Positions 3,201 to 50,046 of a DNA stretch of 64,000 bases are shown in pieces (the first letter of the stretch is position 1; every line of letters starts with the position of its first letter). This DNA is from Oidiodendron maius Zn (taxonomy: Eukaryota > Ascomycota > Leotiomycetes > Myxotrichaceae). The stretch lies in contig KN832875.1 in the NCBI GenBank assembly GCA_000827325.1, positions 1,550,001 to 1,614,000 of the forward strand. Reading direction: 5' to 3'. The notes below the pieces were generated by a model. The model had not been told where the DNA came from. It was given only the letters and a program-made list of their open reading frames with translations, and ran no database searches. Made by a program: the position numbers and the translations under genes.

Positions 3201-3478
3201 CCCTGAATCAGAGAGGTTAGATATTTGCAGGGGAATTTGGATTTGTTTTACAAAGGACGGAGGGCCAATTGTGAGGCTGCAGCGCAGACGAACCATAGTG
3301 TCTCCAACTCATTGCAGTCGATATACGGATCTTTGATCAGGCCATGGTGGAGCAGATCGATGTGTGCGACCGTGGGGAACTGGGCAACGGGAAGGAAGGA
3401 GGATGCGGCGCCGTTGTTCAAGGAGGTGGACTGCTTGAAGTGCCAGCCTGTGTTTATGGGGGTTCTCTTGAGCTCCAT
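295..3478 (-). CDS. mndB: GH2 beta-mannosidase, intracellular (MndB) type
   Basis: Hydrolyses terminal beta-1,4-mannose residues from manno-oligosaccharides or N-glycan cores. Reading begins at MELKRTPINTGWHF (ATG at 3478) and runs through about seven exons to the stop at 295. The order is an N-terminal sugar-binding beta domain, an immunoglobulin-like domain, the catalytic barrel and a C-terminal beta domain, as in GH2. The acid/base Glu lies in WAGNNED near 1750. The nucleophile Glu lies in FVSEFGFES near 1405, on an exon that follows a short intron. WGWDWGPAV, typical of GH2 mannosidases, is encoded near 2685. No signal peptide is visible, which favours the intracellular B type over the secreted A type; this is an inference. 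Exon junctions near 1080, 1490, 1765, 1860, 2065-2130, 2740-2870 and 3200-3290 were placed approximately. Family assignment is firm; exact exon ends are not. Confidence 0.9.
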
Positions 3479-24611: not shown

Positions 24612-25826
24612 TCAGAAAGCACTAATACGACTCCCCATCCGGTCGGGTACCAGCTCCGGCGTATGCGAGCGAACTGGGTACTCGGTCGCTGGCGCAGCAA
24701 GCAGCGTGCTCGTGAGTGGCTGCGGCGATTGTATGCTGGGAGAGTGCTTGTCTGTCTGGATAGGCTCGACGTGGCCAGTCTTTCGTGGCCCAGTGCGTGC
24801 TGAGGAAGGGAGGATCTGCTCGAAGCCTTGAGAGGCGGCAACTGCCTCGATGGACTTAAAATACTATGTACGGTGTAAGAAGATGTTCGTGACATGATGT
24901 GCGAGAGGTATGAGAACTTACCTTGACGGTCTTGACTTGCAGTTCCAGGGTCGCATCCTCGTCTACCACGATCATGGGGTGAGGGTGCAGTTGGAGGGAG
25001 GACAGCGTCCACATGTGGTTAACACCGCCCTCGATACATTTCTGCAGGGCGAGAGCCTTGTGCGCGCCAGTGATGATGATGACAACTTCCCGAGCCTCCA
25101 ATACCGTCTGTACCCCAACAGTCAGCGCCATCTTGGGGACTTTGTCCAGGTCATTGCCGAAGAATCTGCTGTTGGCAAGGATGGTGTCATAGGCTAGGGT
25201 CTTGACTCTGGTCCGGGAGGCGAGAGACGAGCCGGGTTCGTTGAAGGCGATGTGCCCGTCAGGTCCGATGCCGCCCAGGAAGAGGTCGATGCCACCGTGG
25301 GCCTTGATAGCAGCCTCGTAGGCCACGCACTCAGCTTCCAAGTCTGGGGCGTTGCCATTGAGGATGTGGATGTTCTTCGGGTGAACGTTGACGTGCGAGA
25401 AGAAGTGCTTGTACATGAACGTATGATAGGACTCTGGGTGCTCGCGGGGAATACCAATGTACTCATCCTGTGGATTGTATGTTAGTTATACCCAAGCTAT
25501 GAAGTCTGGTGGTGAGGCTCCGGGCGGATATAAATTGAGGCCGGGTTGTGAACAGGCGCATACCATATTAAATGTCACGACATGTTCAAAGGATATTTCA
25601 CTAGCCTTGTACTTCTCGACAAGGATCTGGTATATCTTAACAGGCGAGGAGCCCGTAGGCAGGCCTAAGACGAAGGGGTGCTCTGCTGTTGGGTTGAAGG
25701 TCTTGATCCTATCTCTTGGGGGGTTAGAAGGACCATCGTGAATCACGGGGTTGAGGACAAACCGATGATGTATTTGGCGATGTAAGCTGATGCCGCAGCG
25801 GGGTCTTCTCTGATGATGAGCCTCAT
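24612..25826 (-). CDS. nagB: glucosamine-6-phosphate deaminase/isomerase (NagB type)
   Basis: Four exons (25826-25763, 25712-25564, 25467-24922, 24854-24612) join in phase to 333 residues. The start reads [17 protein letters not shown], the standard NagB opening. Catalytic motifs are intact: [10 protein letters not shown] (phosphate loop), FNMDEYIG (general-base Asp, split by an intron just before the Asp) and [15 protein letters not shown] (Asp, His and Glu of the ring-opening relay). The enzyme turns glucosamine-6-phosphate into fructose-6-phosphate and ammonia, the last step of GlcNAc use. The tail after residue 255 is longer than in bacteria and low in complexity. It is divergent from the hexokinase-family gene across 1.5 kb. 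In Trichoderma and Candida, genes of this type cluster with the GlcNAc kinase. Known fungal names include dam1 and nag1. Confidence 0.95.
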
Positions 25827-26397
25827 TTTCGACTAGAGAGGGGGGAGGGGTTTGAGATTAGGTGTCTAAGACAACGTAGAGGGGTAGAGGGCAGCAGAAG
25901 GAGATCCTTTCGCCAGAAGCAGAGAGAGAAGAGTGGAAGCCCAGCTTTCAACGGTCTCGTAGTGAATAAGACATACACTTCGCACTTAAGCCTCTAATGA
26001 AAAATGGATGATGACTACAGTACTAATTCCTGGCAACTAGCTAATCAATCCCCAACCACATGTGACGTTCTCGATTGGATCGAAGGAATGGTATACCGGA
26101 CGTGGGGATACCCAGCCGGCGGGTGCTATGGAACGTCACGGTCAGCAGCCCTCACATTCCAACGCCACGGCGAAATTGCAAGAAGCCTTTGGATGGACGC
26201 TCCGGCCGTGAAACCCGTCCCTATGAAACCTGCACCGGTGCCCGGCATTTGGAACTGGTTCAGCGGAGATTGAAGAATGCCCGCGGGTGGAGCATTCCCG
26301 CCTGTCAAAATCTCTTGGGTGCTCCACGCTGGCCGGATGCGCACAGTCAGCGACCTTGCCAGCCCAGGAACGGAAGATTTTCTTCTAGGCCACACTG

Positions 26398-26404
26398 CAC
26401 AAAT
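26398..26404 (+). promoter_or_regulatory. candidate NDT80-family binding core, CACAAAT
   Basis: The core matches the CRCAAAW consensus of Ndt80-type DNA-binding domains. One such match per 1.5 kb is not far from chance, so this counts only because an NDT80-family regulator is encoded 4 kb away. Confidence 0.25.
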
Positions 26405-26734
26405 GGTTGTGGATGTTGTCGTCGCTACCGTCGCGCGCCGTTCGCGTACGGCATCCATTACTTAAGCACCGGTGGGTGTACTGTAGCACCGCAAGTGGCA
26501 CTCCAGGATTGTAACGTTGCCTCTCGCCCTCCTCACAACCACCAACCCGTCCATTCGCACCCAAGAACTCAACGACCAGCGGCGACTTAGCCGCGTCAAT
26601 CCAGGGGCAGGGCCGCCTACATCTCGCACGTTGGGCTGGTGGAGCTTCCGTTTCTCTGCTCCTGGCCGCCTAGTCCGTCTTTCCAGCCCCCGCCGTGGAA
26701 GTTGAAGACGCGAGAGAAGACCAGCAAAGAAACC

Positions 26735-26741
26735 CACAAAA
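26735..26741 (+). promoter_or_regulatory. candidate NDT80-family binding core, CACAAAA
   Basis: This core fits the CRCAAAW consensus and is preceded by CC, so it misses only the first G of the extended gNCRCAAAW site. It lies about 590 bases before the kinase-like start and 910 bases before the deaminase start. Confidence 0.28.
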
Positions 26742-27324
26742 CGAGTCACGTACAGACCCCCGGAAGTCACAGTGACTTACGGGAGCCATGCCCCTCGCGC
26801 CTCGACGCGCAGTACAGCCGTTACATTGCCCTCCGGCGCGTGTACCGGGTACTCCGGTCGACCTGGGGAACCAACGCGCAGGATCAGCTCAGAGTAGGGC
26901 CGCTATGGCGAATCTGCCCTGATCTCCTTGCTGTTTCGACTGAGTTCGCCGCATCCTATCAAGCTGTTGCATCCCATGCCGCGCAGCGTAAACAGCCGGT
27001 ACTATCTCTCTTTTGCATTGTTACCTGGCTTTTCTGGGCCAGCAAGACACACGTCTCAGTCTCTACCTACCTTACCACCTTGCCCGCCTATCTCCTTCCC
27101 TCCTTAGCCTCGTATTTACTTCAAAAGACGTCTTTGCTCGCGGCGAAACAAGAACAAATCTTGCTTTTTTGCGCATCCTGCCATTCATTGCATGTTACCT
27201 CGACCATAGGCCTGCAAACTAGAGTATGGGGAACGGCTCCAATCGATCCATCCAGATCTGCTATCCTAGCCGCGCCTAGTAGCGCCGCGGACGTCCATTT
27301 CTATATGTATCGACGCTCGATGTC

Positions 27325-28999
27325 ATGCAGCCGTTCATTGCTGCAATGCTCAAGGTACGACAGGCCTTCTTCGCCGCCATCGTCAGGTCGTTGCGGCGAA
27401 CCAAGTCGCTCTTGCGAACGATCCTCACCTTTTGGATCTCACCACTTGTATTAAAGGGCGAAGATGTGGTCAACTCGTCGTCCAAGCAGCGGCGGGAAGA
27501 GTTCTTAGAGGAGGTTGAGCGGTGCCTGAGGGATGAGGTGAAGCGGGAGCGGTTGCTGGCCATCTCCAATGGGATCAAACGCCAGCTTAGAATCAGTCTA
27601 CAGGACAACCCCCAGAATATGCTCCCGTCGTATAATCACCAGCTCCCGACCGGGAATGAGTGCGGAACCTACCTGGCGCTTGACGTGGGGGGGTCGACCT
27701 TCAGAGTTGCCTTGATAGAGCTCTCTGGGAAGAAAGGTGAAGCGCAAGACACCAAGATCCTGACAAGCAGGTCTGTCAAGATCGATCAGACTATCAGACA
27801 GCTCAAAGGACTGGCTTTCTTCGACTGGATTGCGGAGAGGATCGATGAGACCCTGTCCGGGCAGAGCGAAGGGCACGATCTGACCGGTGCGCCTCTGTCT
27901 ATGGGATTAGCCTGGTCGTTCCCTATCGAGTATGTCCCTCCATCGCAACTTCGTTGAGCATGTCAGCTGACCAGCGCAGGCAAACTTCTCTCAGGAGTGG
28001 CCTCCTCTTGGGCATGGGAAAGGGCTTCTTAGCTGCCCACGGCCTTCTCGGCGAAGACCTGGGCGATCTCATCCGAGACGCCTGTTCGCGAAGGGGGCTC
28101 ACGGTCCAACTTAATGCCATTGTCAACGACTCGTCAGCCACGCTGCTGTCTAAGGCGTATCATGACCAGACTACCCGGTTCGCCCTCATCCTCGGCACCG
28201 GGTTCAACATGGCAGCCTATCTCCCAGTGGATATATTCTCCCCATCAAAGTTCGGGGTCCGGCCCTCGACATGGCATGACGAGGCTCAAAGCGTCATCGT
28301 CAACACCGAGATGTCGATGTTCGGGGCTGGCGTCCTCCCCTTCACGAGATGGGATGACCTAATCAACGCGGTTCATGCACAGCCAGAATTCCAGCCGATG
28401 GAGCACTTCGTCAGCGGAGGGTATATCGGCGAGATTGCCCGCCTAGCATTGGTCGAGGGGATCCAGAACGCAGGATTGTTCGGAGGCGTCGTCCCCGCCA
28501 GTCTGAAAGATGGGTACTCTCTGGATACGGAGACGCTCTCAAGAATAGAAGCGTGAGTAATTTTGTGTTTAAATAATTTTTATCCCAGCTGACACGCAAT
28601 CGCAGCGACCCCTCCCCAAACCTCGCCACGGCGCGCAAAGTGTTCCTGGCCCGACACCCCATGACCTATCAACCGACTGTTGCCGACCTGCAGGCGCTCC
28701 GGTTCATCGCATCCAACGTCGCATACCGGGCGAGCTGTATTGTGGCTGCGGGGATTCACGCACTGTGGGAGCTCCGCAACGAGGCCGAGCACATCGAAGG
28801 CAGCGCCTACGAGCACACGCTGGTGGCCTACAACGGCTCCGTCATGGAGAACTATCCCGGCTTTCGGGCGATGTGCCAGACGGAGCTGGACGGCCTGGTA
28901 GTGGCCAGCGGAGGTAGAGCAGGCATGGTAGAGCTGATGTACGCTGAAGAGAGCTCCCTCGTAGGCGCCGCCGTGTCGGTTGCCTGTCTAGACGGATGA
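27325..28999 (+). CDS. hxk3: divergent hexokinase-family protein, probable GlcNAc kinase (HXK3 type)
   Basis: Three exons (27325-27929, 27980-28552, 28606-28999) join in phase to 523 residues. Hexokinase landmarks are clear: ALDVGGSTFRVALIEL (phosphate-1 loop), LNAIVNDSSATLL with the catalytic Asp, GTGFNMAAY, NTEMSMFG and SGGYIGEIARL with the sugar-contact Glu residues. The usual SFPxSQ and WTKGF elements read SFPIEQ and GMGKGF, so two sugar contacts differ from glucose hexokinases. The first 45 residues include a basic, partly hydrophobic stretch (LLRTILTFWISPLVL) that could be a membrane or organelle signal. Position beside the deaminase and a RON1-like gene strongly favours GlcNAc phosphorylation, as reported for T. 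reesei Hxk3. The alternative is a non-catalytic regulatory hexokinase (HxkC/HxkD-XprF class). The fold is certain; the substrate is inferred from context. Confidence 0.88.
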
Positions 29000-30170
29000 T
29001 TATATGACCTTGTGTGTAGGTGTACTGGCATCTTCTTGCATATACACCGGAACTGCATATAGGGAGTTTGATGGGCCAACGGTACATATTATATATATTA
29101 CATGCATTTTTGGATAACGAATGAAGCTATAATTCTCACGAAGGGGCGGTGTTCAATTCATAATTACATGCCCTGCGTATAATTGTTCGATCATCATGGA
29201 GCTCCCCCTGGCGCACATCCGGGTACCTCTAGCTGGGTAGTCTCGCCCAATTGCCTCAAATTACCACCCCAGCAAGGCCACATCTTGCAGGGAGAGAAGG
29301 AAGCCATCCCTACCTGACTATTAGTAATAATTCGCCTTTTGCTGCTCTCCTACTCGTCCTGGCTGCGTCCCTTTCATCCGCACGTCCGTTTGTCGCCCCC
29401 TAGGACTGGGCAGGCAGTGCAGATTTCCCGGCCTATTTCTCTGACAGTACCGCAGCGTGTCCCTGGAGCGCCCGCCACGCCGAAACCCGAGCCAATCCGG
29501 GGGTGTGGGGAAGCCTGGCGCCGAACGAAAGAACAACCTGGAATGGGCTTGGATGGGGGTTTGTGTGTGCGATTCCTGGTTTCGGGCCGCGCTGGGGGGG
29601 AAGGCGGAGGCGGCGAGGAGGAAGAGACAGAGTGTTGGGGAGAGGGTGGTGCTGTAGTGATAGGTACTGTAGAGATAGAGAGATAGCAGATAGGAGGGCA
29701 GCTGGATGCGACGGATTAGCAAGGGGAGCTTTCCCTCTCTGCGCAGGAGATGAGCTGTGGGTTTTGGGGAGAGATAACAGAGATAACCCAGCGTGGGCCA
29801 GGAACGGCTGGCACGCCTCTGCGCGCGTGCGGCGAACTGGGCGGAGTCGGAGTGGCCCGGCAGAGGAGAACAGAGCTGAACTGGAAGGCCTGGGAGTCGG
29901 TTTGGCTTCCTTCCTCCCTCCTTCCAAAGATTGATTTGCATCCCGCGTGTCGTCGCTCATCGCTCGTTCGCTCGCCTCGTGCCCTCTTTCTGCCTTATTT
30001 CCTGAACCTCCGCACTTCCTCCCCCTCGCCCGTCGTTCTTATTTTATACCGGGGAGACTGCTATAACCTCCCACCAGTACTACACTCTAAATATACATCC
30101 CATCCATCGATACACCTATATCCGGCAGCTTCTCTTGTACTTCCCTCTGTCAGGCCCACGAGGCTGTCCG
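29000..30170. other. intergenic, promoter and leader of the NDT80-family gene
   Basis: This 1.2 kb gap contains long open frames on both strands between 29300 and 29960. They lack motifs and reflect high GC content. From about 29940 the sequence becomes CT-rich (for example cgctcgttcgctcgcctcg and the following cctccgcacttcctcc), typical of a long fungal 5' leader. Confidence 0.5.
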
Positions 30171-30215
30171 ATGATGGCATACGATGCGACCAGCCTACCT
30201 ACCACCCAGAGATAG
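30171..30215 (+). promoter_or_regulatory. upstream open reading frame in the NDT80-family leader
   Basis: ATGATGGCATACGATGCG opens a 14-codon frame ending in TAG at 30215. It overlaps the first possible main-frame ATG at 30184 in another frame and stops 61 bases before the second at 30277. A scanning ribosome starting here would skip 30184 and could restart at 30277. This supports 30277 as the main start and suggests translational control, provided the mRNA begins upstream of 30171. Confidence 0.4.
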
Positions 30216-30276
30216 CAGCACTGCAAACACGGCCAGCACCTCCACCTCCACCACGACCCTCACCCTCCGCCCCGAC

Positions 30277-32020
30277 ATGAACGTCGCACAGCACGACCTC
30301 TTGCGACTGACCGCTCCGGACGCGGGCCACCACCTTGGCGGTCATCTCGACATGGAGGCCTTCGATCCCGACATGAATTTCGAGCCCGACGGTTTATTGT
30401 GCGTGTTCCTCCCCTTCTGCTCAGCTGAACCGGCGCTGGCCAGCGCCGGCGAAAAAAGCGTGCACTCACTGACCTCCTCCCTTCTCTGCAGAGACCACCC
30501 CACGAACAGCCTCCCCTCTATCCCTTTCACACCCTCCTACGAGATCTCCGATGCCTTCTCCACCACCTTTGAAGACCCCTTCTCCTACCAATCGGGCGGA
30601 CCTTACGAGTCCATCCTCGATGAGACCGGCACGGCGCAGAGTGGTGACTCCGCCTCTGCAGACCCCGACAACAAGCTCCTGAGCTTCGGCGCACCGATCC
30701 TGAAGGCGGCTGTGCTCGACGACCAAGGACAGACATGGCCGACCATGTCGGCTGAGTTGTACGGCATGTTCTTCGTCGCCGAAGATGTGTTCGGCGGCGA
30801 GACTACGGGCCGCCCCATGGAGCTGACCTGCTACCGACGCAACCTCTTCCAGATCTCGGGCATGATCACGCTGTCGAGGAGTATTTCGCAGATGGTCAAC
30901 GCCCAGGGCCAGCACGTGCCCGTTTACGACCTGCAGGCGACCATCTCTGCCCTGGAGAGTATTGAGGGCAAGAGTACGGAGATCATCAGCGTGCCGTGGA
31001 AGACGAACAACGGGATCGCGAGCGAGGACAAGTCCGGCGCCGCGCCGCCAAGATGGCCCCTGGATCTGAGCATGAATCCCGAGTTGGACCCGTCATGCGT
31101 GTCCATCCCCATCGCCTGGAAGCGGCTTCAGTTCAAGCACGCGACCGCCAACAATGGCAGGCGGAAGGGGCTGCAGCAGCACTATATCATCCAGATCAAC
31201 CTCATGGCGACCCTACCCAATGGAGAGCAGGTCAAGCTATCCGAGATCCAGAGCGGACCCATTATTGTAAGAGGGAGAAGTCCTAGGAATTTCGATAGCA
31301 GGAAAGACGTGCCTCTCAGCGAGCGGAAAGTAGAGCCCAAGCAGCGGACTGCGAGCGATGCTTCACTTCCCCCAATGAAGGTTGATCCGGCAGTTACCAA
31401 CAGTAACTACAGGTTTTATTCTATGAATGGAGTTCAGGTGTGTTCACATATTTCATCTCACCATTTAGTCCCAACTAACAGGGATTCAGGGTCAGCCGCC
31501 GCCGCAGCAACACCAACAGCAACAACAGTATGATATGGCTGAATGGCCCGGGACGAGCCCCACGCTCCCGCACGCCTCGGCCGATGGCTCACCAACACAG
31601 GCTCGCCAGGCCAAGAAGATGATGGGACAATCAAGCACCCATCGTCCTCCGATCCCAAAAACAAAATGGAAGGCGGAACTGACGCCGACTAAACCATCAT
31701 CCGCATCGGCACCCATTGATCTCTCACTTGTAGATGACGACCATGGACGCTCGAATGGCTTGGGATCTGGGGTTGGGAAGCCTTCTTCTGTAGGGGAGTC
31801 CAGCCCGATCGTAGAGAAGGGCAGGAAATTGGGTCACGGCAGCCCAGTCGAGAACGCGGACCTGCTGTACGAGTACTTCCCGCTCAGCCTGGATGACTGG
31901 ATGCCCCCAGTTGACGCCATCTACCGGCCACATGTTGTGCACCATACGATCCTTCCGCCGGATCTCAAGGCAGCTCAGCTGCGGAACAAAACGAAACGGT
32001 ACTTCACCGCGGAGGATTAA
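30277..32020 (+). CDS. ron1: NDT80/PhoG-family transcription factor, RON1-like
   Basis: Three exons (30277-30398, 30492-31437, 31490-32020) join in phase to 532 residues; an in-frame ATG at 30184 would add 31. The NDT80 immunoglobulin-like DNA-binding domain spans roughly residues 100-330. Recognisable parts are ELYGMFFVAEDVFGGE, RPMELTCYRRNLFQISG, SISQMVNAQGQ and the late KLSEIQSGPIIVRGRSPRNF. The carboxyl part has a polyglutamine run just after the second intron, then a conserved end with DDWMPPVDAIYRP and KRYFTAED. Filamentous fungi have several paralogues (VIB-1/XprG, FSD-1/NdtA, RON1). The setting between the GlcNAc-kinase-like gene and the GH3 glucosaminidase gene points to RON1, activator of GlcNAc and chitin use in T. 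reesei. By sequence alone a VIB-1/XprG identity cannot be excluded. An upstream frame precedes the start. Confidence 0.9.
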
Positions 32021-33709
32021 CACAAACCGAGACCGAGAAGTGGGATGCAGGCCGTGTACGAATATATATGAAATATGTAAGACTCGGGTAGGCGAGGGAT
32101 TAGTTGGACGAGTGTGTCACTTCACTCGCAGTGGAATGTTACGCCACTGATTTGAGGCAGGGATGGGGTGAATGGATCCGGGGAGAACTTTATATATACC
32201 ACGGGAGAGAGATGCCCGACCCTGCGCACGGGGATTTGCGGGTTACGATAGGAGTGATAAGTTGAGCACGCACAAGTCTGATAGCCTCACATCCATGGAT
32301 GTCGCAGGGCAAGGCAGAAAAGGGCTGGCATTAGGGCCAGAAGCCCAACACGCTGCGGGAGGGGTAGAGGGATCGAACAGGACGTGGCATAGCCAAGAAG
32401 GAGGATCTGTCTGCCTACCTATTGAGTTAGGGAGCTCTTGTCGTAGCCATAAGCAATGTCATCTTTTTACACCCCCAGAAATGTATAAAAATGGCTGTGA
32501 ACCTCTTGCTCACTTCGAGATGTAAAGCATGAGAAACACCCATTCTGTCTGGTATGGTGGCCCTTGTGTTGAAGCAAGAAGGGAGGGCGATGGATTTGCT
32601 TGCCCCTGAGTAGTTATATGGAACACCACGCCAAAATATAAGGTAGAGGTAACAGGTCGCTACCTCTGAGCTCTTACACTTCGATATGCCAAGCGATGTT
32701 TCCTCGACCTAGAGGCACAACCGTATTTTGTCCACTGATTTGATGCATGAGCTATACCTGCCGTCCAAACTCGCATGAACAATGTAATAACGACATGAAT
32801 GCAGAACACACTGAAGCCCGCTCAAAGAACAAAAGCTAGCAGAAGAGCCGCACGGCTCTTATATACCTAAGGTAGGTAGCCTCTCTCGGCACTGAGTAAT
32901 GTCACATTGAAACATTCTGATATAACATGTCGTGCTCACTCTTCGGTTCCAGCTCGGTGGTTTTACACCAACTGCCGACGATCCCCAATCCATCCATCAA
33001 TTTAATTTTAAGCAGCGAGGCGATTTCTTTGTATAGTAGGTAGCAGTCGCCCACAGATGTGATCTGAGCTGAGCAGAGATGAAATCGAGTAGGTTACCTT
33101 GTTGCCCATCACAGGTTCCATAGAAACCTTGCGCCGGTGGAGGGAAGATGTAACGTTAGTTCCGCGCGTGTTCCCAGGTTCGAAGCGAAGGGCGATCCAC
33201 CGTCTCAGAAACAATTTGGTTTACTCCGCTTTTTATTTCGGTGGCGCTTTTTTCCAGATTCCTGCAAACCCCCCCCCCCCCAAAAAAAAACCACGTGACT
33301 CTTTCAAGCCGACCTCCCGGGGCCCCTCCATTCGAGATGGCCGGACATCGAAACCTGGTTTACGAAGCGAGCACGACCAGCGAAAGGCGTTGTACCCCAT
33401 TGTTTTTCTTACGGAAGTGCTTCGCTGTCCTATCATACCGAGGCTGAATCTTGTCCGGTTCCAGAAGAAGTATGAGCGGCGAGAACTTCATAGATTCCTT
33501 GCCTTATGCGCTGCTGACGTGACGAGAGGGAGAGTGTAAGGGACTGCATCTCTTGCCCAGTGTGCTGCTTCGTGCCAGCCCCGTGGGCCTCCCCCCTCAG
33601 ACCGCCAACCACGGTTACCTGCTCCCGCGAGAGAGGAGGACGAGGAGCAGGCGCAAGGAGGAGGAAGTGAGGCTATACGGCGGCGTGCTGGACCCCACCG
33701 CGTGAGAAG
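32021..33709. other. intergenic, with a C13-A9 homopolymer tract
   Basis: This 1.7 kb gap lies between the RON1-like and GH3 genes. At 33269-33290 there is a run of 13 C followed by 9 A, then CCACGTGAC, an E-box palindrome. The rest shows no coding signal. The last 170 bases before the GH3 start are purine-rich. Confidence 0.5.
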
Positions 33710-36700
33710 ATGGAGGCCGTCTCTGAAGAGGTGCTGGACGGGAAGTGGGAGGATCTGGATTGGTATGTTTTGCCCTTTACCTTTCTCGCTGCATAGCCTG
33801 GTTTTGAGACGTTGTGAGAGGCGAGAGTGGAGGGAGGAGAGAGAGGAACAAGATAGTGTGTGCTGATTTGATATGATATGTGTAGGGCGATGGGACAGTG
33901 CTTCATGATGGGTTGGGAGGGCACGGAGATCACTAGTCAGATCCGGACGCTGATTGAAGATCACCATGTTGGAGCTGTTTTGCTGACGACGAAGAACTTG
34001 AAAGGTAATTGCTTGTGTTTCTTTATTTGTTAACTATATAACTGCATTTTATGCTTGGAGTCGATCAAAGTTGAAGGCGGTCTGGATGGATTGAGGTCTG
34101 AGGCTGAGAGCTAGATTTCCTCAATCGTGCATGGGTTTCCGGGACTTGACCTATCCCTATGGCCTCTGACCCACTTACTTCGTTGGCGCAGTTGTTTCTG
34201 GCTGGAAATCGTTGCTTCTCTCCCCAATATACCCTTTTGATATCTTTGGATATAGCAACGTGATCAAGACTGACCGCTGCAGGTGCCCATCAGACTGCAC
34301 GGCTGGTACAGGAGCTGCAGACCATCGCCCATCAGGCTGGACATCCCGTCCCTCTGCTCATCGCCCTGGATCAAGAGAATGGCGGAGTCAATAGCCTTTT
34401 CGACGAGGACTATATCTGCCAGTTCCCTAGTGCCATGGGGGTGGCAGCTACCGGATCTCCCGATCTCGCATACGAGGTCTCAAATGCCACGGCCAAAGAA
34501 CTGTCTGCTGTTGGAGTCAATATGATTATGGGCCCGGTGCTTGATGTCCTGACGAATGCGAGGTATCAGCCGTTGGGAGTTCGAGCTACAGGAGATGATC
34601 CACAAGAAGTATCTCAGTATGGCATCGCTGCAATGAATGGGTATAAGGATGCCGGCATTACGACTTGCGGGAAACACTTTCCTTCATATGGGAATCTAGA
34701 TTTCCTTGGGTCGTCTCTTGATATGCCTATCATCACGGAGACTCTAGAACAGTTGAGTTTGAGTGCTTTAGTACCTTTTCGAAATGCCATTCGGGAGGGC
34801 CTGGATGCGATTATGGTGGGTGGGTGCGCTATAGCTAATGCGGGTATGAATTTCTCATCTCGTTCAGGCCATCATCACTAACATTATCAGGCATGAATGT
34901 CATGCACGCCTGCTTGAGTGACCAGGTCGTGGACGACCTCCTGAGAAAGGATCTTGGCTTTAACGGAGTTACCATCTCAGAGTGTCTTGAAATGGATGCT
35001 CTGAGCCACGATATTGGAGTCAGGGGTGGGACTGTCATGGCCGTCGAAGCCGGCTGCGATCTCGTCCTCCTGTGCCGCTCATTCTCAGTCCAGCTTGAAG
35101 CCATCTCTGGACTGAAGCTTGGAGTTGAGAATGATATGATATCACGAGATAGGATCAACTTGTCCCTTACGCGAGTTTTGACGTTGAAGTCAAAATGCAC
35201 GTCCTGGCAGAAGGCCCTTAACCCGCCGGGAATTAGTCTCCTCTCTCAACTTCATCCGAGCCATCTTACACTCTCTACTAAGACATACGACAACTCTATT
35301 ACCGTCATGAGGGACACCGGTCATCTTCTTCCTCTATCGAATACTCGCTACGCCGATGAAGAGCTGCTTCTGCTTACTCCTCTCGTAAAGCCGCTACCAG
35401 CCTCAGCTGAGACGAGAACGCTCGCCGAGTCTAAAGGGGTGCCATCAGAGCATGATAAATGGAACCATAGGTCTTCCATTATGAGCGGCGAGAATGTATT
35501 TCGTGAGCTGGGTCGCTTACTTGCACGACAACGCCATGGAAAACTCCTCCACACGTCATACACAGCAAATGGTGTCAGGCCAGTCCATGAAAATCTTATC
35601 AATAGAGCTGGATGTATCATTGTCGTCACTGCAGATGCCAACAGAAATCTGTATCAGAACGGATTTACAAAGCACGTTGCAATGATGTGTTCCATGCTCA
35701 GTTCCGGCGGAAAGAAGAAATCGTTGATCGTGGTCTCGGTCAGCTCTCCTTATGATTTTGCAATGGATAAATCGATAGGAACGTATATATGTACATTCGA
35801 CTTCACAGAGACTGCCATGGGCGCCCTGGTGCGCGCCTTATTTGGAGAATTCGTTCCCCAAGGCACATTACCTGGGACGCTTAGAAAGAGTAGAAAAGTG
35901 CAAAAGTCAAGGCAGCACTGGCTAGTCGAGAATTGGAATTGGGATCGAGATAATAGAGGATTGCAGGCTCTCATCAAAGCACTGGAGAAGACCGTCCTGC
36001 TAAATCAACAGTCTGGCTTGATAGGGGCCTCTGCTTCAGCATTCTCACTGGTAGGTCTGCCAAATCGGTAAATATCTGTAGACTAACAAATCGCAGCCGT
36101 TTACATCGGCTGAGGAGACAATTGAAGAATCGCATTACGTTGTCCGCAATAGCTCAACCCAAGCGCTCTTCGGTTTCTGCAGTACTTACTACCACCCTGC
36201 CTCTGCAACAGGCATGCTCGGCGCCATCTTCGTTGACCCCTCGAAACGCAATCTCTCCATTGGGCACTCACTACACCAGCGTGCCCTCCGCGGTCTTCTT
36301 CAGAAGCCCCGCATAAAGAAGCTCCAACTAGGTTGTGGACTCCCTTCTATATTCCTCGGTATCCCTATGAGTGATCTGTCTGAGGGCGCACGATTAAAAC
36401 GCTGGTTCGCCACCAATGGGTGGGATATCTCATCGCCAAGACTGCTATATACTCTTACGATAAAAAATCTGAGCAATTGGGCTCCTCCAGAAGGGCTACT
36501 TCAGAGTATCCAGCGCGTGAGCTTTGGGTTTGATCTGATTCATGGCACAGAGAATGCATCTTCGGTCCTAGACCATGTCTCCGCTCATGCCAGTCCTGAG
36601 ATCCAGGGCCTCTATCAGCTAGCCCTGACGGATCCCAAAACATGTGGCATCGTGAGAGCGAAGTCCCCTGTTGATGGTGCGCTGGTTGGGACGGTCATAG

Positions 36701-37011
36701 TCTGCCGCTCGTCGACGTTGCTAGAGACGTACATGCCGGTCCTCCACTCCGATGGATCGGAGGGTGTCGGGGGGATCTTGGCTCCGGTAGTTCCGAGTAG
36801 CCCACAAGCGAGTATCGTGCTGCAAGGTCTTGCGTTGTTGGGGATTAGACAGAATAAGGCGCATAGATGTGCAACCTGCGTGTTGAACTGGGTCGCTGGT
36901 GAGGAGCGGGATGTTCTTCTTTCTATGGGCTTTGATGTTTTGGATGCGTGGGAAGAGTTGAGTTCTGTTTCTGAAAGGGTGAGCCTCATGTCTTCTGGCG
37001 CTGACGAGTAA
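33710..37011 (+). CDS. nag3: GH3 beta-N-acetylglucosaminidase fused to a GNAT-like domain (NAG3 type)
   Basis: Five exons (33710-33762, 33886-34004, 34283-34843, 34891-36050, 36097-37011) join in phase to 935 residues. The first 340 or so form a NagZ-like GH3 barrel: LLIALDQENGGV (substrate loop), GVNMIMGPVLDV, and GITTCGKHFPSYGN, which corresponds to KHFPGHG. LGFNGVTISECLEMDAL corresponds to the nucleophile strand. In bacterial NagZ that strand reads SDDL with Asp as nucleophile; here the position is Glu. A middle region without a clear name follows. Residues from about 630 resemble one or two GNAT acyltransferase folds (MLGAIFVDPSKRNLSIGHSL, GLALLGIRQNKAHRC). No signal peptide is seen, so the protein is probably cytosolic. 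It would free GlcNAc from chito-oligomers or conjugates and so feed the cluster. The family is secure; acetyltransferase activity is only inferred. Confidence 0.92.
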
Positions 37012-38420: not shown

Positions 38421-39929
38421 ATGGCAGAAATCACCATCACAGGCTGGGAATGGAAAGATGTTCGATTTCCGACCTCCTTGGACAAGACGGGCTCGGATGC
38501 CATGAATGCAGCTGGAGATTATTCCGCAGCATACTGCATTCTCCAGACCGATTCGAAATATTCCGGTCACGGCATGGTATAACCACCCATTCTTCATCCC
38601 ACGTAAATCGCAGATTAATTACTCCCCTATGTGCTTGAAATGATAACTGATATTCGGTGATTATAATAGACATTCACAATTGGGAGAGGGAACGACATCG
38701 TATGCAAGGCAATCGACCATGTTGCAGATAGAATTAAGGGCAAAACACTCTCATCTCTCGTTAGCAATTGGGGCGAAACATGGAGATACCTGGTCTCGGA
38801 CTCGCAATTGCGCTGGATTGGCCCTGAGAAGGGTGTGATCCACCTAGCTCTCGGAGCTGTGGTCAATGCAATCTGGGATCTTTGGGCGAAGTCTCTCGGC
38901 AAGCCCGTCTGGCGGATTGTGGCCGATATGACGCCAGAAGAATTCGTGAAGTGCATTGATTTCAGGTATATTACTGACGCGATTACACCTGAGGAGGCGG
39001 TTGAGATGTTGAAGGCTGAGGAGGCCGGAAAGGCACAGAGGATCAAGGATGCGGAGGAGAGCAAGGCAGTTCCAGCATATACTACCAGTGCCGGGTGGCT
39101 GGGTTATGGCGAGGAGAAGATGAAGGGGCTGCTGGAGGATACCTTGAGCAAGGGATATAAGCATTTCAAATTGAAGGTCGGCTCGAGTGTTGAGACTGAT
39201 CGACGACGATTAACCATCGCACGAAGTGTAATTGGGTACGACAGAGGAAATATCTTGATGGTGGACGCGAATCAGGTATGTTTTTTTTTTCACTGGTTCA
39301 TTATAAATCATATTTCAGAGACGCTAAGACCAGTAATATAGGTTTGGTCAGTCCCAGAAGCTATAGAATACATGAAAAAGCTCAAGGATTTCAAGCCTTG
39401 GTTTATCGAAGAACCAACATCGCCCGACGACATCCTAGGACACAAAGCGGTTCGAGAAGCGCTCCGCCCCTACGGTATTGGTGTTGCTACTGGCGAGATG
39501 TGCCAGAATCGTGTTATTTTCAAGCAGCTCCTGGCATCTGGTGCTATCGATGTGTGCCAGATTGATGCTTGCCGCATGGGAGGTGTCAATGAAGTTCTAG
39601 CCGTCCTCCTCATGGCCAAAAAGTTCAACACCCCAATTGTTCCTCACTCTGGAGGTGTGGGATTGCCAGAATATACCCAGCATCTGAGTACTATTGACTA
39701 TGTGTGCGTGAGCGGGAAGAAGAGTGTTTTAGAGTACGTGGACCACCTCCATGAGCATTTCGAGCACCCGGCGGTGATCAAGGATGGTTACTACCAAACG
39801 CCAATGGAGCCAGGATATAGTGTCGAAATGAAGCCTGCTAGCATGGTGCAGTTTGGATTCCCTGGAACAGAAGGCAGCTGGTGGAAGAGCGAAGAAGCGA
39901 GACCAATCTTGGAAGGGGTCAAGATTTAG
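38421..39929 (+). CDS. lgd1: L-galactonate dehydratase, enolase superfamily
   Basis: Three exons (38421-38576, 38670-39275, 39342-39929) join in phase to 449 residues. The sequence follows the T. reesei LGD1 / Aspergillus GaaB family closely: SLDKTGSDAMNAAGDYSAAY, MTFTIGRGNDIVC, GPEKGVIHLALGAVVNA. Active-site elements of the mandelate-racemase group are present: the KxK motif in HFKLKVG, the metal ligands in MVDANQ, FIEEPTSP and VATGEMC, and a histidine in IVPHSGGVG. The enzyme removes water from L-galactonate to give 2-keto-3-deoxy-L-galactonate, the second step of the fungal D-galacturonate pathway for pectin sugars. No other gene of that pathway is in the window. It acts in the cytosol. 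L-fuconate dehydratase is a related alternative, but the whole-length agreement favours LGD1. Confidence 0.94.
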
Positions 39930-40434: not shown

Positions 40435-42299
40435 ATGCCTCGACAAAAAGCTTCGAAAGGCAAAGCGCCGCAGGTATCACAACGGGCCCCAAAATTAACG
40501 AAAGAGAACTTTGAGAAAGAGCTCCAAGACTTGGCATCAAAGGCCAAAGAGGAGACGTGGCAGAAATGGGCCAGAGATCAAATTTGGGTATTGATTAAGG
40601 CTGGCGGCCTTCTCACTTTCGCTGCAGTATATTCAAACGTGTCTCAACTCGCTCTATCACCTGTTTTCGGCTCTATACCAGCTTCCATATGGCATCAGAG
40701 CGGAGTCATAATAGCTTGTTTCCTTGGATGGAGTTTGAATTTGTTTCTTGCCAACAATTTGCCTTACAAGACTGTGAAACTTTTACCAGTTCTTGCGGCA
40801 TATATTCCTATTATGCAGCTCGCCCTTTCAAAGTATAGTGGACTTCTGGGCGCCCTTTATGGGCCTCTAATTATTGAGAGTGTCACTTTCTTCCCTCTAC
40901 TTATGTTGTCCGTATCAAGCACCGCTATCATCTTAGACGATATGGACATGAGCCCCGGCAGGTTTAAGTGGATCACAGATGCACTGCCAGGCATTTTATC
41001 CTACACTTTCTACAAGGTGGTGGAGAATTTTTCGAGAGTCAATCTTCAGGAGATGCTTGTGAAATACTCCTTTTTGAATCGCCTGAACCTTGAGCTGGGA
41101 TTCATTGGGCTATATTCAATAATTGCACCTTCGAATCTGCTCATTTTCACAATCCCTCCGCTCCTCCATACCGTTGTCTTAAACCCTCATGTTACTCTTC
41201 CATGGACAACATATTCTCTAAATGCAACCCTGAATCAGAACGGATGGTCATTACTTGACCGGCAGGAATCACTCACAGGATACCTCTCCGTGATTGAGAA
41301 CAAGAATGTCGGATACAGAGTTATGAGATGTGACCACAGTCTTCTTGGAGGAGAATGGCAGTTATCAGCTACGAAAACCAGCACGAAGGAACCTATTTAT
41401 AGCGTATTTGTTATGTTGGAAGCCGTTAGGCTTGTCGAGGTTTCTCTTAGAGTGCCTGATGAAGAGGCTAGTGCTTTGGTCGTGTAAGTCACCTGTGTTG
41501 GGCGATGAAGATGCGGACTGATCAGGAATAGTGGTTTGGGTATTGGGACAACTCCGGCAGCTTTGATCGCCCATGGAATCAACACCACAATTGTGGAAAT
41601 TGACCCCATTGTCTATCGTTTTGCATCTGAGTATTTCGATCTGCCGTCGAACCATACGGCTGTTATCTCCGATGCTGTATCTTATGCCTCTCTATCCGTA
41701 GCATCGGGGAAAAAGTTCGATTATATTGTTCATGATGTTTTCACCGGCGGTGCAGAGCCAATCGACCTTTTTACCTTTGAATTCCTCCACGACCTTCATT
41801 CTCTGCTCAAACCTAATGGGGTAATAGCTATTGTAAGTTAAAACCTTATTGATTCCAGCCTATGTTAGTTAACTGAACCCCCTAGAACTATGCTGGAGAT
41901 TTCATCCTCCCCTCAACACGCATAGTATTACATACCATCCTCTCCATCTTCCCAACCTGTCGTATCTACCGTGAGTTCGTTGCTCCCTCTTCCTCGATGG
42001 TTGATGTAGACGGGCGAGACTTTACCAACATGGTGATATTCTGCACCAATGCCCCCGACGGAACAATCACCTTTAGAAAACCCGATACTCGAGACTATTT
42101 AGAGAGTCACGCAAGGAGAAAGTTCTTGGTGCCGGAGCATGAGGTTTTGAGAGATGAATTTGCACTTCAGGAGGGTGATGGCGAAGTGCTAAGCCGAAAT
42201 AATACACAGAGGTTTGAGATTTGGCACCACAAAAGTGCATTGGGCCACTGGGCTGTGATGAGAACTGTGCTCCCCGCTGATATCTGGGAGAATTGGTAA
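40435..42299 (+). CDS. membrane-anchored spermine/spermidine-synthase-fold protein
   Basis: Three exons (40435-41483, 41532-41832, 41886-42299) join in phase to 587 residues. A basic amino end is followed by about six hydrophobic segments between residues 50 and 260 (VLIKAGGLLTFAAVYS, GVIIACFLGWSLNLFL, LPVLAAYIPIMQLAL, ALYGPLIIESVTFFPLLML and others). The second half has the Rossmann fold of polyamine synthases: VGLGIGTTPAALIAHG (nucleotide loop), TIVEIDPIVYRFA and YIVHDVFTGGAEP. The aspartates needed for aminopropyl transfer in true spermidine synthase are not evident. Activity as a polyamine synthase is therefore doubtful, and a SAM-dependent methyltransferase-like role is possible. Proteins with this layout are widespread in ascomycetes but uncharacterised as far as I know. 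The gene structure is secure; the function is open. Confidence 0.85.
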
Positions 42300-46991: not shown

Positions 46992-48455
46992 TCAGTAGCT
47001 TGACTGAGCCTTCGCGCGTAATTTGGGTCCATATACCCAAATGAGCACTGGTGCGGGTATACCAATCCCAATCGCAAGGAATGCCAATGTGCTGTTTCCC
47101 CAGCCGTACCCCAAAGCCGAGTACATGGTTGGAGCGAAGAGGGGAAATCCGAAAGCCGTTAAGCTGCGTAGGAATTGAGACGCTGCGAATGCTGAGCTTG
47201 TATGATCTGGATAAGTGTCTATGACGTAGGCTTGTAGCCCTTGGCCAGCGATTTGCATACCAAAGGAGAGTAAGCCTACCGCAAGGTCAACGACGATCCA
47301 AGGAGCGTGCTCTTGAGCGGCCCAGCCGTACATAAACAAGCCGGCAGGCGTGAGAATGGCCCCAATAAACATTATCGGAACTCGAAATTCCGGAATAGTG
47401 GCGCCATGAGCTCGACTCTTCATTTTCCGGTAGACCACATCCATAAGAGGCCCGCCGATTTCGGCTCCGATTATCTCGCCTGCGGCCATGGAGACGTAGT
47501 GGATGCCACTTATCGATATGGATTCATGATAATTGTTAATCCAGAGACCAGAAAATGTCGACAAAACCAGATATAATAGGCCGTAGTTGAAAGCAGATAC
47601 ACACGCCTGGACCTGGATGATGGGATGAAAGAGAAGTAGGCGAACTGGCCGAGAGAGGCTTCTCATTATCACCCAGGATGCGGAATGAGCAGAATCAAGC
47701 CTTTCAACTTCTGTAAAGTATCGTGTATTACCTGTCGCCTTCTGCAAATGTTTCGCTCTTTGTAGGAGAATTGTGGGGCCGTGAGTCTCGTGAAATAATG
47801 TGAAGGAGAGTATGACCATGACCCCTTGAAGCAGAGATGTTGACCAGAACATCCAGCGCCAAGTAGTGCCTTCAGTAATAAACCCTCCTATTATAGGACC
47901 AATCGCGGCACCGAGCAACGGGATGAGGACGTATAGTCCCAGAGACCGCCCGCGCTGCTCGGGCCTCCACACATCTCCTAGGACACCACCTGCTAAGGCG
48001 TAGACAGCACTGGCACCGAAACCAGCCAGTAGCCGAGCCGCAATGAGAAGTGCTTTATTATGAGTGAATCCGCAAGCAATGTTCCAAACAAGGAACCAGA
48101 CGTTTGTTGCGTGCAGGACGGGCTTCCGACCATAAACCTCCGAGAGCGGCCCTATCAAGAGAGGCCCAAAGGCGGTGGCCAGGAGATAAACTGACATTGA
48201 CATTACTGTTTCGGTGCTGTTCATATCGAGCTCGCGGCCGATAGTGGATAGAGCAGGAGCCATGACGGTAGAGACCATGATTCGGTTGAAACCGGTGGCG
48301 GACAGGACGCCTGTCACAGTCCATTTTTTGAGCAGTGGCCAGTCTTTAGGGTTCTCATCATCAGTGGGTAGAGCAAAAGTGACCAAAAAGGAGTCTTCTG
48401 GCGTATTAGTGGACGCTCCACTCGTTCCTTTCTCATTATCCATTGCACTGGCCAT
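46992..48455 (-). CDS. MFS transporter, DHA1 (drug:H+ antiporter) type
   Basis: A single exon of 487 residues from the ATG at 48455 (MASAMDNEKG). The cytosolic amino end is short and acidic. Twelve membrane spans are expected from the hydrophobic pattern. The MFS motif between spans 2 and 3 reads GPLSEVYGRKPVL, and span 5 has the antiporter-type GAAIGPIIGGF, so 12-span DHA1 is the best class. LWINNYHESISISGIHYVSMAAGEIIG and the tail are typical of fungal efflux pumps of polyketides, azoles or polyamines. It is not an NGT1-like GlcNAc transporter by its motifs, so it does not complete the GlcNAc cluster. The substrate cannot be told from sequence. Confidence 0.9.
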   Translation of the reverse strand: MASAMDNEKGTSGASTNTPEDSFLVTFALPTDDENPKDWPLLKKWTVTGVLSATGFNRIMVSTVMAPALSTIGRELDMNSTETVMSMSVYLLATAFGPLLIGPLSEVYGRKPVLHATNVWFLVWNIACGFTHNKALLIAARLLAGFGASAVYALAGGVLGDVWRPEQRGRSLGLYVLIPLLGAAIGPIIGGFITEGTTWRWMFWSTSLLQGVMVILSFTLFHETHGPTILLQRAKHLQKATGNTRYFTEVERLDSAHSASWVIMRSLSRPVRLLLFHPIIQVQACVSAFNYGLLYLVLSTFSGLWINNYHESISISGIHYVSMAAGEIIGAEIGGPLMDVVYRKMKSRAHGATIPEFRVPIMFIGAILTPAGLFMYGWAAQEHAPWIVVDLAVGLLSFGMQIAGQGLQAYVIDTYPDHTSSAFAASQFLRSLTAFGFPLFAPTMYSALGYGWGNSTLAFLAIGIGIPAPVLIWVYGPKLRAKAQSSY

Positions 48456-50046
48456 CTCTGCTATGGAACATCCGGCAGACAGTGGCGAAAGCAAAGTAAT
48501 ATATAATAGTCAACAGCTCTTTTGATTATCTCCACCTCCTCGGATGCAACGGATAATTGAGCGAACTTTCGCCAGAGACTCACACCGAGCTGCTGAAAGC
48601 TACCTAGGACTCTAGGCTGAGAGATGCTCTGATAGGTTGCCAGGTGCCTGGTACAGGGAAGAAGAGGGGAAGCGAGAATCTGATTAGATGGAATTACGCC
48701 GAAATCTTATCAGATCGTCTCTTTCTGCCAGATGACACATCTCTCCCAAACACCCCCAGTTCCGTATGTAAAATGGAGCTCTGCTGCCTGAACCTCATCC
48801 CGTCTTGTCGGTGAACTGAACATCAAGCCATTCCAGTTATGATATTGCGACGGGACATGGGAATTCGGGAGGGAGAAGTACGGGAGTGCGGAACTTGGTA
48901 ATTTGGACACGAAGAAATGATGTATAATTTATGATCGTGAGAAAAGTAATTGTTTCCATTGACCTAAGTACCCCGAAGGGCAGGGAAGAGATTCCCCTAA
49001 TTCCATATATATGTGCACTGAGTGTTCTTTCCCTCACATCATAACGCACGCCGAAACCAACTTATGCTGTAATCTAGCTCGTCTGCCAAATATCATCTTG
49101 ACTAGAATTTCGTCTTTACCAACCCATGAAGATGGCTGGATGTATGACTGACAACAGAAAGATATTCCCGCTGAAGGACTAGACTAGTGGTGTAGTCTCG
49201 CTAAGGAACGGAAACACAGCAGAAATAAATTCTGACAAGACGATGAAGTCAGCCATAGGGTATACCGATCGAGACGCTTTGTTGCACGAAGCTGAGGTTG
49301 AGTAACCAGGGCTTTACTCTCGAACTTCGGTATCGTCCCTCGCATACTTTTGTACTGTACTCATATACGATATACTTATATATTTAGCAATAAGCACTTG
49401 AGACGGCTGCCGTAAGCAATGTTTGTCATTCTTATGTATTCTGGTAATTTGCGAATCTGAAGCTATACTATATGAGGGGCGTTCTCTCCCAGACTAACCT
49501 AATTTGTGATATTTCTGCCGACTGAAATGTTGTCCAAGCCGTAAAGGAGGAGAGTCGATCTCGGTAAGAAGCAGCGGATTCGACTGGGAACAATATAGAG
49601 TTGTCCTGACACTTTTAAGGTACAGTAAGAAGTGGCCTGTGTACACACTTCACAGATGCTCCCTGAAGCATTTAAATTCTGGTAACCCAGACTGGGTTTC
49701 GGCGAATATAGGCACTATGAGCTGCGAATTGTATAAGATTTCACTTCACGGTTCTTATATGTGAAGAGTCGAAAAAACAAGAGGAACCATTCTTTGTGTT
49801 GTGAAAGTGGGATGGGACGTACGTTCCGACTAAACCGAACAAATCAGGGACGGAGGTCTTGGACAGCTAGCTACCACAAAATTTTGAATAAGGCTAGAGC
49901 AGATGATTGGTTTCCTGAAGCAGATCGAGAATCGCTGGGGATGGTTGGAAACGCTCCCCAGGCTGTGGCCTCTCGACCCATCAACATCGCTACAAAAGCC
50001 GCAGCAAAGGGAAAACCCACCGGCATTAGGTCTACCAGTCAAGCAG
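48456..50046. other. intergenic, no gene seen
   Basis: This 1.6 kb gap contains only short motif-free frames. It holds the MFS promoter and, toward the end, the presumed promoter of the Fungal_trans_2-type gene. A frame is open from about 49761 to 50144 but shows no family features. Confidence 0.5.

Follow-up and report, generated by a model that had tools for sequence, protein, structure and literature searches.

A probable split RON1-type gene cluster for utilization and sensing of N-acetylglucosamine in Oidiodendron maius Zn

Gene content of the locus

We analyzed a 64-kb stretch of the Oidiodendron maius Zn genome (contig KN832875.1, positions 1,550,001 to 1,614,000 of the forward strand), which is called the window below and in which all positions are counted from its first letter. 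The window has the character of a filamentous fungus, with short GT-AG introns, and the system in question is a 12.4-kb block at 24612-37011 whose genes point to the use of N-acetylglucosamine (GlcNAc), the sugar of chitin. Splice-aware rebuilding of the gene models, introns included, showed that this block is filled by four intact intron-bearing genes, which encode a deaminase (NagB), a hexokinase of divergent sequence, a factor of the NDT80 family and a protein of the GH3 family. All four reading frames were unbroken, and 11 of the 11 modelled introns were GT-AG. The same four genes had been named in an initial annotation of this DNA; the models and their Pfam domains confirmed them, and the outer ends matched 24612 and 37011 exactly.

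The glucosamine-6-phosphate deaminase gene, nagB/dam1, lies on the minus strand at 25826-24612 and has four exons (25763-25826, 25564-25712, 24922-25467 and 24612-24863) for a product of 336 amino acids (aa). The divergent region that follows (25827-27324) is a putative two-way promoter, and the remaining three genes are on the plus strand. A putative GlcNAc kinase gene, hxk3 (HxkC-like), occupies 27325-28999 with three exons (27325-27929, 27980-28552 and 28606-28999; 523 aa), and ron1, for the transcription factor of the NDT80/PhoG family, occupies 30184-32020, also with three exons (30184-30398, 30492-31437 and 31490-32020; 563 aa). The last gene, ngs1 (formerly nag3), spans 33710-37011 with five exons (33710-33762, 33886-34004, 34283-34843, 34891-36050 and 36097-37011); its 935-aa product combines a GH3 part with a GNAT-like part and is a putative GlcNAc sensor and acetyltransferase. 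The intergenic gaps measure 1498, 1184 and 1689 bp in cluster order.

The deaminase and the hexokinase

The deaminase gene that belongs to a RON1-type cluster (dam1) is present and intact. Its product matched the Pfam family Glucosamine_iso (1.3e-24), passed the NCBIfam model TIGR00502 nagB with 400.2 bits against a cut-off of 236.9, and matched PDB entry 1ne7 with an E of 3.1e-115. The active-site motifs aligned with E. coli NagB without gaps, and DEY and DGHIAFNEP, which we take to hold the catalytic residues, were both kept. A C-terminal tail of about 70 aa has no counterpart in E. coli NagB.

HXK3 matched Hexokinase_1 (2.1e-46) and Hexokinase_2 (4.9e-56) in Pfam. It keeps Asp252 of the VND motif, Lys216, GTGxN and Glu312, to which we assign the usual catalytic roles by assumption. 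Each of the PDB alignments shown was with an entry for type I hexokinase, and the comparison is therefore one with a single protein in its two halves. Relative to type I hexokinase the sugar site departs at two places (GMGKGF for WTKGF and EMSMF for EWGAF), and there are 9 additional residues between the GTGxN and NxE motifs when compared with the second half of 1cza. Judged by sequence, HXK3 resembles the HxkC/HXK3 kind, with hexokinase domains whose sugar and ATP motifs are divergent.

The motif pair is GTGFN/NTEMSMF in HXK3, GTGIN/NCEASLF in the GlcNAc kinase of Y. lipolytica (YlNag5) and GTGSN/NMEWGAF in the second half of 1cza. Point changes in each of the two YlNag5 motifs, which stand at matching sites, abolished growth on GlcNAc, and YlNag5, like HXK3, is without Trp-Gly (PMC4376941). 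Kappel et al. consider HxkC, as the HXK3 orthologue, a likely GlcNAc kinase (PMC4950302). From such orthologues, a role as GlcNAc kinase is favoured for HXK3, and a second, regulatory role is possible. The first 45 residues of HXK3 hold 8 basic and no acidic residues, with a helical moment that was reached by 110 of 2000 shuffles. This composition is at most suggestive of mitochondrial targeting, and acid-free 45-residue stretches are also present in RON1 and NGS1.

The GH3 protein and its GNAT-like region

A linked GH3-family gene of the nag3/ngs1 kind is present. Its product matched Glyco_hydro_3 in Pfam (2.6e-61), with the GH3-fold GlcNAc-binding domain at aa 28-343, and the best PDB match was 4zm6 (1.2e-84), deposited as an N-acetyl-beta-D glucosaminidase. 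The initial annotation had called the gene a glucosaminidase, and this label did not survive a comparison of residues. The four GlcNAc-binding residues are kept (D87, R158, K188 and H189), but both members of the Asp-His dyad are lost (D to G200, H to S202) and the nucleophile is changed from D to E275. The proteins of 4zm6, 6k5j and 3bmx, and E. coli NagZ likewise, have D-S-H at the dyad and Asp as the nucleophile. Asn stands at the nucleophile in 3lk6 and 4gyj, which are otherwise identical to the 3bmx protein and which we presume to be engineered mutants.

As a control for these residues, E. coli NagZ and 80 bacterial homologues, the best of 367 relatives, were aligned. The 367 had been found in prokaryote genomes with a two-row alignment of NGS1 and E. 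coli NagZ; NGS1 alone as query found no relative in the prokaryote genomes. By title, the control homologues are mostly Gammaproteobacteria. Both dyad residues were kept in 80 of the 81 sequences, and the Asp nucleophile and the four binding residues in 81 of 81. Conservation of K and H in this set is partly by construction because one scan pattern contains GKHF; the dyad and the nucleophile lie outside this bias. The single dyad exception, L005 (metagenome-assembled genome, match 2501-3289), has no dyad loop at all, which may be a real variant or an assembly error. A megablast search of the GH3-encoding DNA against plasmids gave no match.

Published orthologues show the same combination of features. 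Ngs1 of C. albicans binds GlcNAc by its GH3 fold, for which D74, R145 and K175-H176 are needed; it was shown to lack the catalytic dyad and to be a histone acetyltransferase that GlcNAc triggers and the Ndt80-family protein Rep1 recruits (PMC5063960). In T. reesei, NAG3 was renamed as the sensor NGS1 because its catalytic residues are lost much as here, with G-S-N at 206-208 for D-S-H and E282 for the Asp nucleophile, although a figure legend of the same paper gives Asp208 (PMC12176254).

In the C-terminal part, V677 and G687, which stand at the sites of acetyl-CoA contact, are spaced by 10 residues; the T. reesei pair V685/G695 and the C. albicans pair V686/G696 have the same spacing. The full length of 935 aa compares with 932 in T. 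reesei. The C-terminus matched the GNAT part of 4zm6 weakly (E 0.00083). By eye, the first GNAT-like unit seems to be followed by another at aa 765-935 (about 36496-37008); neither Pfam nor any credible PDB entry matched these last 170 residues. Taken at the residue level, the product of 33710-37011 is most likely an NGS1-type GlcNAc sensor, not a working glucosaminidase. Its sensing and histone acetylation would be as in the orthologues.

The NDT80-family factor

RON1 matched the Pfam family NDT80_PhoG (1.6e-36) across the full 180-position profile, with the DNA-binding domain at aa 182-342, and a linked NDT80-family regulator is part of the cluster. In the PDB search the sole match was 5yhu, a myelin regulatory factor (E 0.0055). 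A single match to an NDT80 relative in viral contigs was a repetitive ORF (open reading frame) with a short common stretch, and it was rejected as chance.

The initial annotation had proposed that a grouping of the NDT80 gene with VIB-1/XprG and of the hexokinase with HxkC/HxkD would speak against the cluster. In the analysis of Kappel et al., RON1 and XprG are orthologues that share a clade and HXK3 is the orthologue of HxkC, while VIB-1 is a paralogue that only Sordariomycetes and Leotiomycetes have (PMC4950302). Because of this orthology the cluster would be supported if its genes grouped with XprG and HxkC, and only a grouping with VIB-1, NdtA/FSD-1 or HxkD would count against it.

Search of the window for dac1 and ngt1

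The initial annotation had noted that a deacetylase and an NGT1-like gene are absent from the window, and our searches agreed. A comparison of E. coli NagA with all six frames of the 64 kb (tblastn) gave 13 matches, all with an E of at least 0.63, while the positive controls of the same run reached 1e-96 (NagB) and 2e-17 (NagZ). Because the NagZ control matched, relatives at about 30% identity are detectable by this six-frame search. No amidohydrolase was found in Pfam scans of 20 ORFs, of which 19 lie on either side of the cluster and one lies between ron1 and ngs1; these 20 are a selection from 99 listed entries of at least 100 aa, in which entries near borders are listed twice.

The only protein of the major facilitator superfamily (MFS) found in the window, encoded at 46992-48494 on the minus strand, has motif C at residue 186, which we take as the mark of an antiporter. 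The best 25 of its 64 NCBIfam matches were all below cut-off; efflux pumps ranked at the top, and symport and sugar-porter models stood lower among the matches listed. By these best, sub-cut-off models it is probably a DHA-type efflux pump. It was rejected as NGT1 on motif C and the efflux models, with no direct comparison to an NGT1 sequence. A second transporter was not found either, as no other stop-to-stop ORF of at least 50 aa in any frame had more than 4 membrane-like segments. Thus, dac1 and ngt1 appear to be absent from the 64-kb window. A linked dac1, which is usual in a RON1-type cluster and not required of every member, is not found at this locus.

Some other features were seen in and around the block. 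An enolase-superfamily gene resembling sugar-acid dehydratases lies at 38808-39929 (plus strand), just downstream of ngs1, and is probably unrelated to GlcNAc use. At 40435-41841 (plus strand), an ORF with multiple membrane segments is followed by a spermidine-synthase-like domain; both may belong to a single spliced fusion gene. Between ron1 and ngs1, a run of C is directly followed by a run of A at 33269-33290, and the ORF at 32172-32522, the sole gap ORF scanned, had no Pfam match. A transfer RNA scan and an Rfam scan at gathering scores found none. Sec13, used to place the fungus, matched 4ycz best (357.7 bits), with 2pm6 second (236.2 bits); we take these entries to be from Myceliophthora and budding yeast.

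Interpretation of the cluster

Gene content and linkage support a RON1-type GlcNAc cluster, as the initial annotation had proposed. Four intact genes stand side by side, their domains are identified, and the GlcNAc-binding residues of NGS1 are kept while its hydrolase residues are lost. Very probably, this is an ordinary split GlcNAc utilization and sensing cluster of the Pezizomycotina type, with dac1 and ngt1 elsewhere in the genome.

In such a cluster, GlcNAc would enter the cell through an unlinked NGT1 and would be phosphorylated by HXK3; an unlinked DAC1 would remove the acetyl group, and NagB/DAM1 would convert glucosamine-6-phosphate to fructose-6-phosphate. Control would be local. RON1 would bind the promoters and recruit NGS1, and binding of intracellular GlcNAc by the inactive GH3 fold of NGS1 would switch on its C-terminal acetyltransferase, which would acetylate histones and open the promoters, so that hxk3 and nagB would be induced together with dac1 and ngt1 at their unlinked positions. 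RON1 binding and the other steps of this mechanism are modelled on the orthologues.

Several points weigh against this reading. The orthology of HXK3, and of RON1 as opposed to VIB-1, is based on linkage and residues, and a working pathway is assumed while dac1 has not been found. The Pfam GNAT match of NGS1 scored 18.0 bits, just below the curated cut-off of 20.7, and a single-sequence AlphaFold model of the C-terminus failed, with a mean predicted local distance difference test (pLDDT) of 35. The promoters did not help, since there was no convincing enrichment of Ndt80-type sites in the three intergenic gaps. Here observed counts were compared with expected counts and with 200 shuffles, with consensus patterns for Ndt80-type sites (the middle sporulation element, MSE) and CreA-type sites that are our assumption. 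The full site GNCRCAAAW occurred 0 times against 0.42 expected, and CRCAAAW 4 times against 1.84, a count reached by 27 of the 200 shuffles.

Three of the four CRCAAAW sites lie in the nagB-hxk3 gap, where 3 were reached by 4 of 200 shuffles, and the rate was 0.92 per kb in the gaps versus 0.53 outside the cluster. CRCAAA was seen 6 times (3.85 expected, 40/200 shuffles) and CACAAA 4 times (1.93 expected, 25/200 shuffles). CreA-type sites were in no convincing excess in the three gaps, with 27 versus 25.9 expected for SYGGRG and 13 versus 14.2 for SYGGGG. Because Ndt80-type sites are not convincingly enriched, the step at which RON1 binds the promoters is not supported here.

Three other explanations were weighed, two of which turn on what single proteins do. 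The hexokinase could be a non-catalytic regulator of the NDT80 factor of the HxkC/HxkD type, with no kinase activity, since HxkC and HxkD of A. nidulans, in which some conserved residues are absent, were reported to regulate XprG negatively and to have no catalytic function, HxkC being mitochondrial (PMC3821154). The altered sugar-site motifs and the 9 extra residues of HXK3 fit this idea, but its catalytic Asp, Lys, GTGxN and Glu remain, Thr266 and Glu294 of Y. lipolytica Nag5 at matching sites are needed there (PMC4376941), and in M. oryzae a hexokinase-like protein was established as a true GlcNAc kinase (PMC8658026). The kinase and regulator roles are not mutually exclusive. We regard a purely non-catalytic HXK3 as unlikely. 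It is still less likely that the GH3 gene encodes an active beta-N-acetylglucosaminidase that works inside the cell and feeds GlcNAc into the pathway. The strong GH3 domain, the deposited function of 4zm6 and the opinion of Su et al. that Pezizomycotina orthologues may keep hydrolase activity, owing to a glutamate (PMC5063960), speak for such an enzyme, and L005, 1 of the 80 bacterial homologues, indicates that not every family member has the dyad loop. However, the dyad is kept in 79 of these 80 and the nucleophile in all 80, as in 4zm6, 6k5j, 3bmx and E. coli NagZ, and the protein of the window has lost all three residues.

The third explanation concerns the pathway as a whole, in that dac1 would be lost genome-wide and the kinase, sensor and regulator would serve salvage of GlcNAc into chitin and signalling, with no catabolism. 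It agrees with the failure to find dac1 in 64 kb, with the catabolism-independent GlcNAc signalling reported in Candida and Yarrowia, and with published evidence that a GlcNAc kinase can double as a regulator. But an intact, conserved NagB would presumably be of little use without DAC1, and unlinked pathway genes have been published (PMC4950302, PMC9319794). We give this loss very little credence. We see an equally slim chance for a dac1-less salvage and signalling module in which HXK3, of the HxkC type and perhaps mitochondrial, and the dead-enzyme NGS1 jointly switch RON1.

For the split cluster that we prefer, the initial annotation was right about the cluster type and about the absence of dac1 and ngt1 from the window, and it was mistaken about the glucosaminidase, the grouping test and the position of NGT1 in T. 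reesei, which is taken up below. The locus is one more example of a cluster type already described, and its value is corrective: annotation by domains only would label 33710-37011 a glucosaminidase, while the residues point to a sensor. In this layout two enzymes remain beside the regulators RON1 and NGS1, and the deacetylase is not with them; should the remainder of the genome bear this out, the locus would be one instance of which genes hold together after a break in this cluster.

Comparison with known clusters

A fungal RON1-type GlcNAc cluster has already been described (PMC4950302). In T. reesei it contains hxk3, dac1, dam1, ron1 and nag3/ngs1, and mutants lacking cluster genes or ngt1 formed much less biomass on GlcNAc. 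The deaminase, the putative GlcNAc hexokinase, the NDT80 factor and the GH3-GNAT sensor are linked here as they are in T. reesei, whereas the T. reesei cluster also includes dac1 as one of its three structural genes. The initial annotation had counted NGT1 as a member of that cluster, but ngt1 of T. reesei is on chromosome 7, far from the cluster on chromosome 6 (PMC12176254). Because ngt1 is unlinked there too, dac1 is the only departure from the T. reesei layout.

Split arrangements like this one are known from other species. A survey of 18 species draws unlinked cluster genes, according to its figure legend, and in A. nidulans an inversion has broken the cluster into two parts, where xprG adjoins the nag3 orthologue (PMC4950302). 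In A. niger, Ngt1 (An16g09020) and Dac1 (An16g09040) have near numbers and Hxk1 (An13g00510) has a different prefix (PMC9319794). The break here differs from what the A. niger numbering implies, as hxk3, nagB, ron1 and ngs1 are together and dac1 is unseen. In A. fumigatus, the tags AFUB_083460, 083490 and 083510 belong to DacA, NagA and RonA and 083500 to a beta-N-acetylglucosaminidase, and the source terms the GlcNAc genes non-clustered (PMC12584764). We observe that the tags AFUB_083460 to 083510 are nearly consecutive, and 083500 may by its position be NGS1.

Among characterized proteins, the pair of NGS1 and RON1 is like Ngs1 and Rep1 of C. albicans, where a GlcNAc-binding, hydrolase-dead GH3 domain fused to GNAT has an Ndt80-family partner; C. 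albicans NGS1 lies outside the catabolic cluster and is not induced by GlcNAc (PMC5063960), and the enzyme cluster of that species includes the deacetylase. The probable GH3 plus GNAT architecture is shared with the best solved-structure match, 4zm6, which we take to be RmNag of Rhizomucor miehei. In that protein the D-S-H of the dyad and the nucleophilic Asp are intact, whereas NGS1 of this cluster has lost all three residues.

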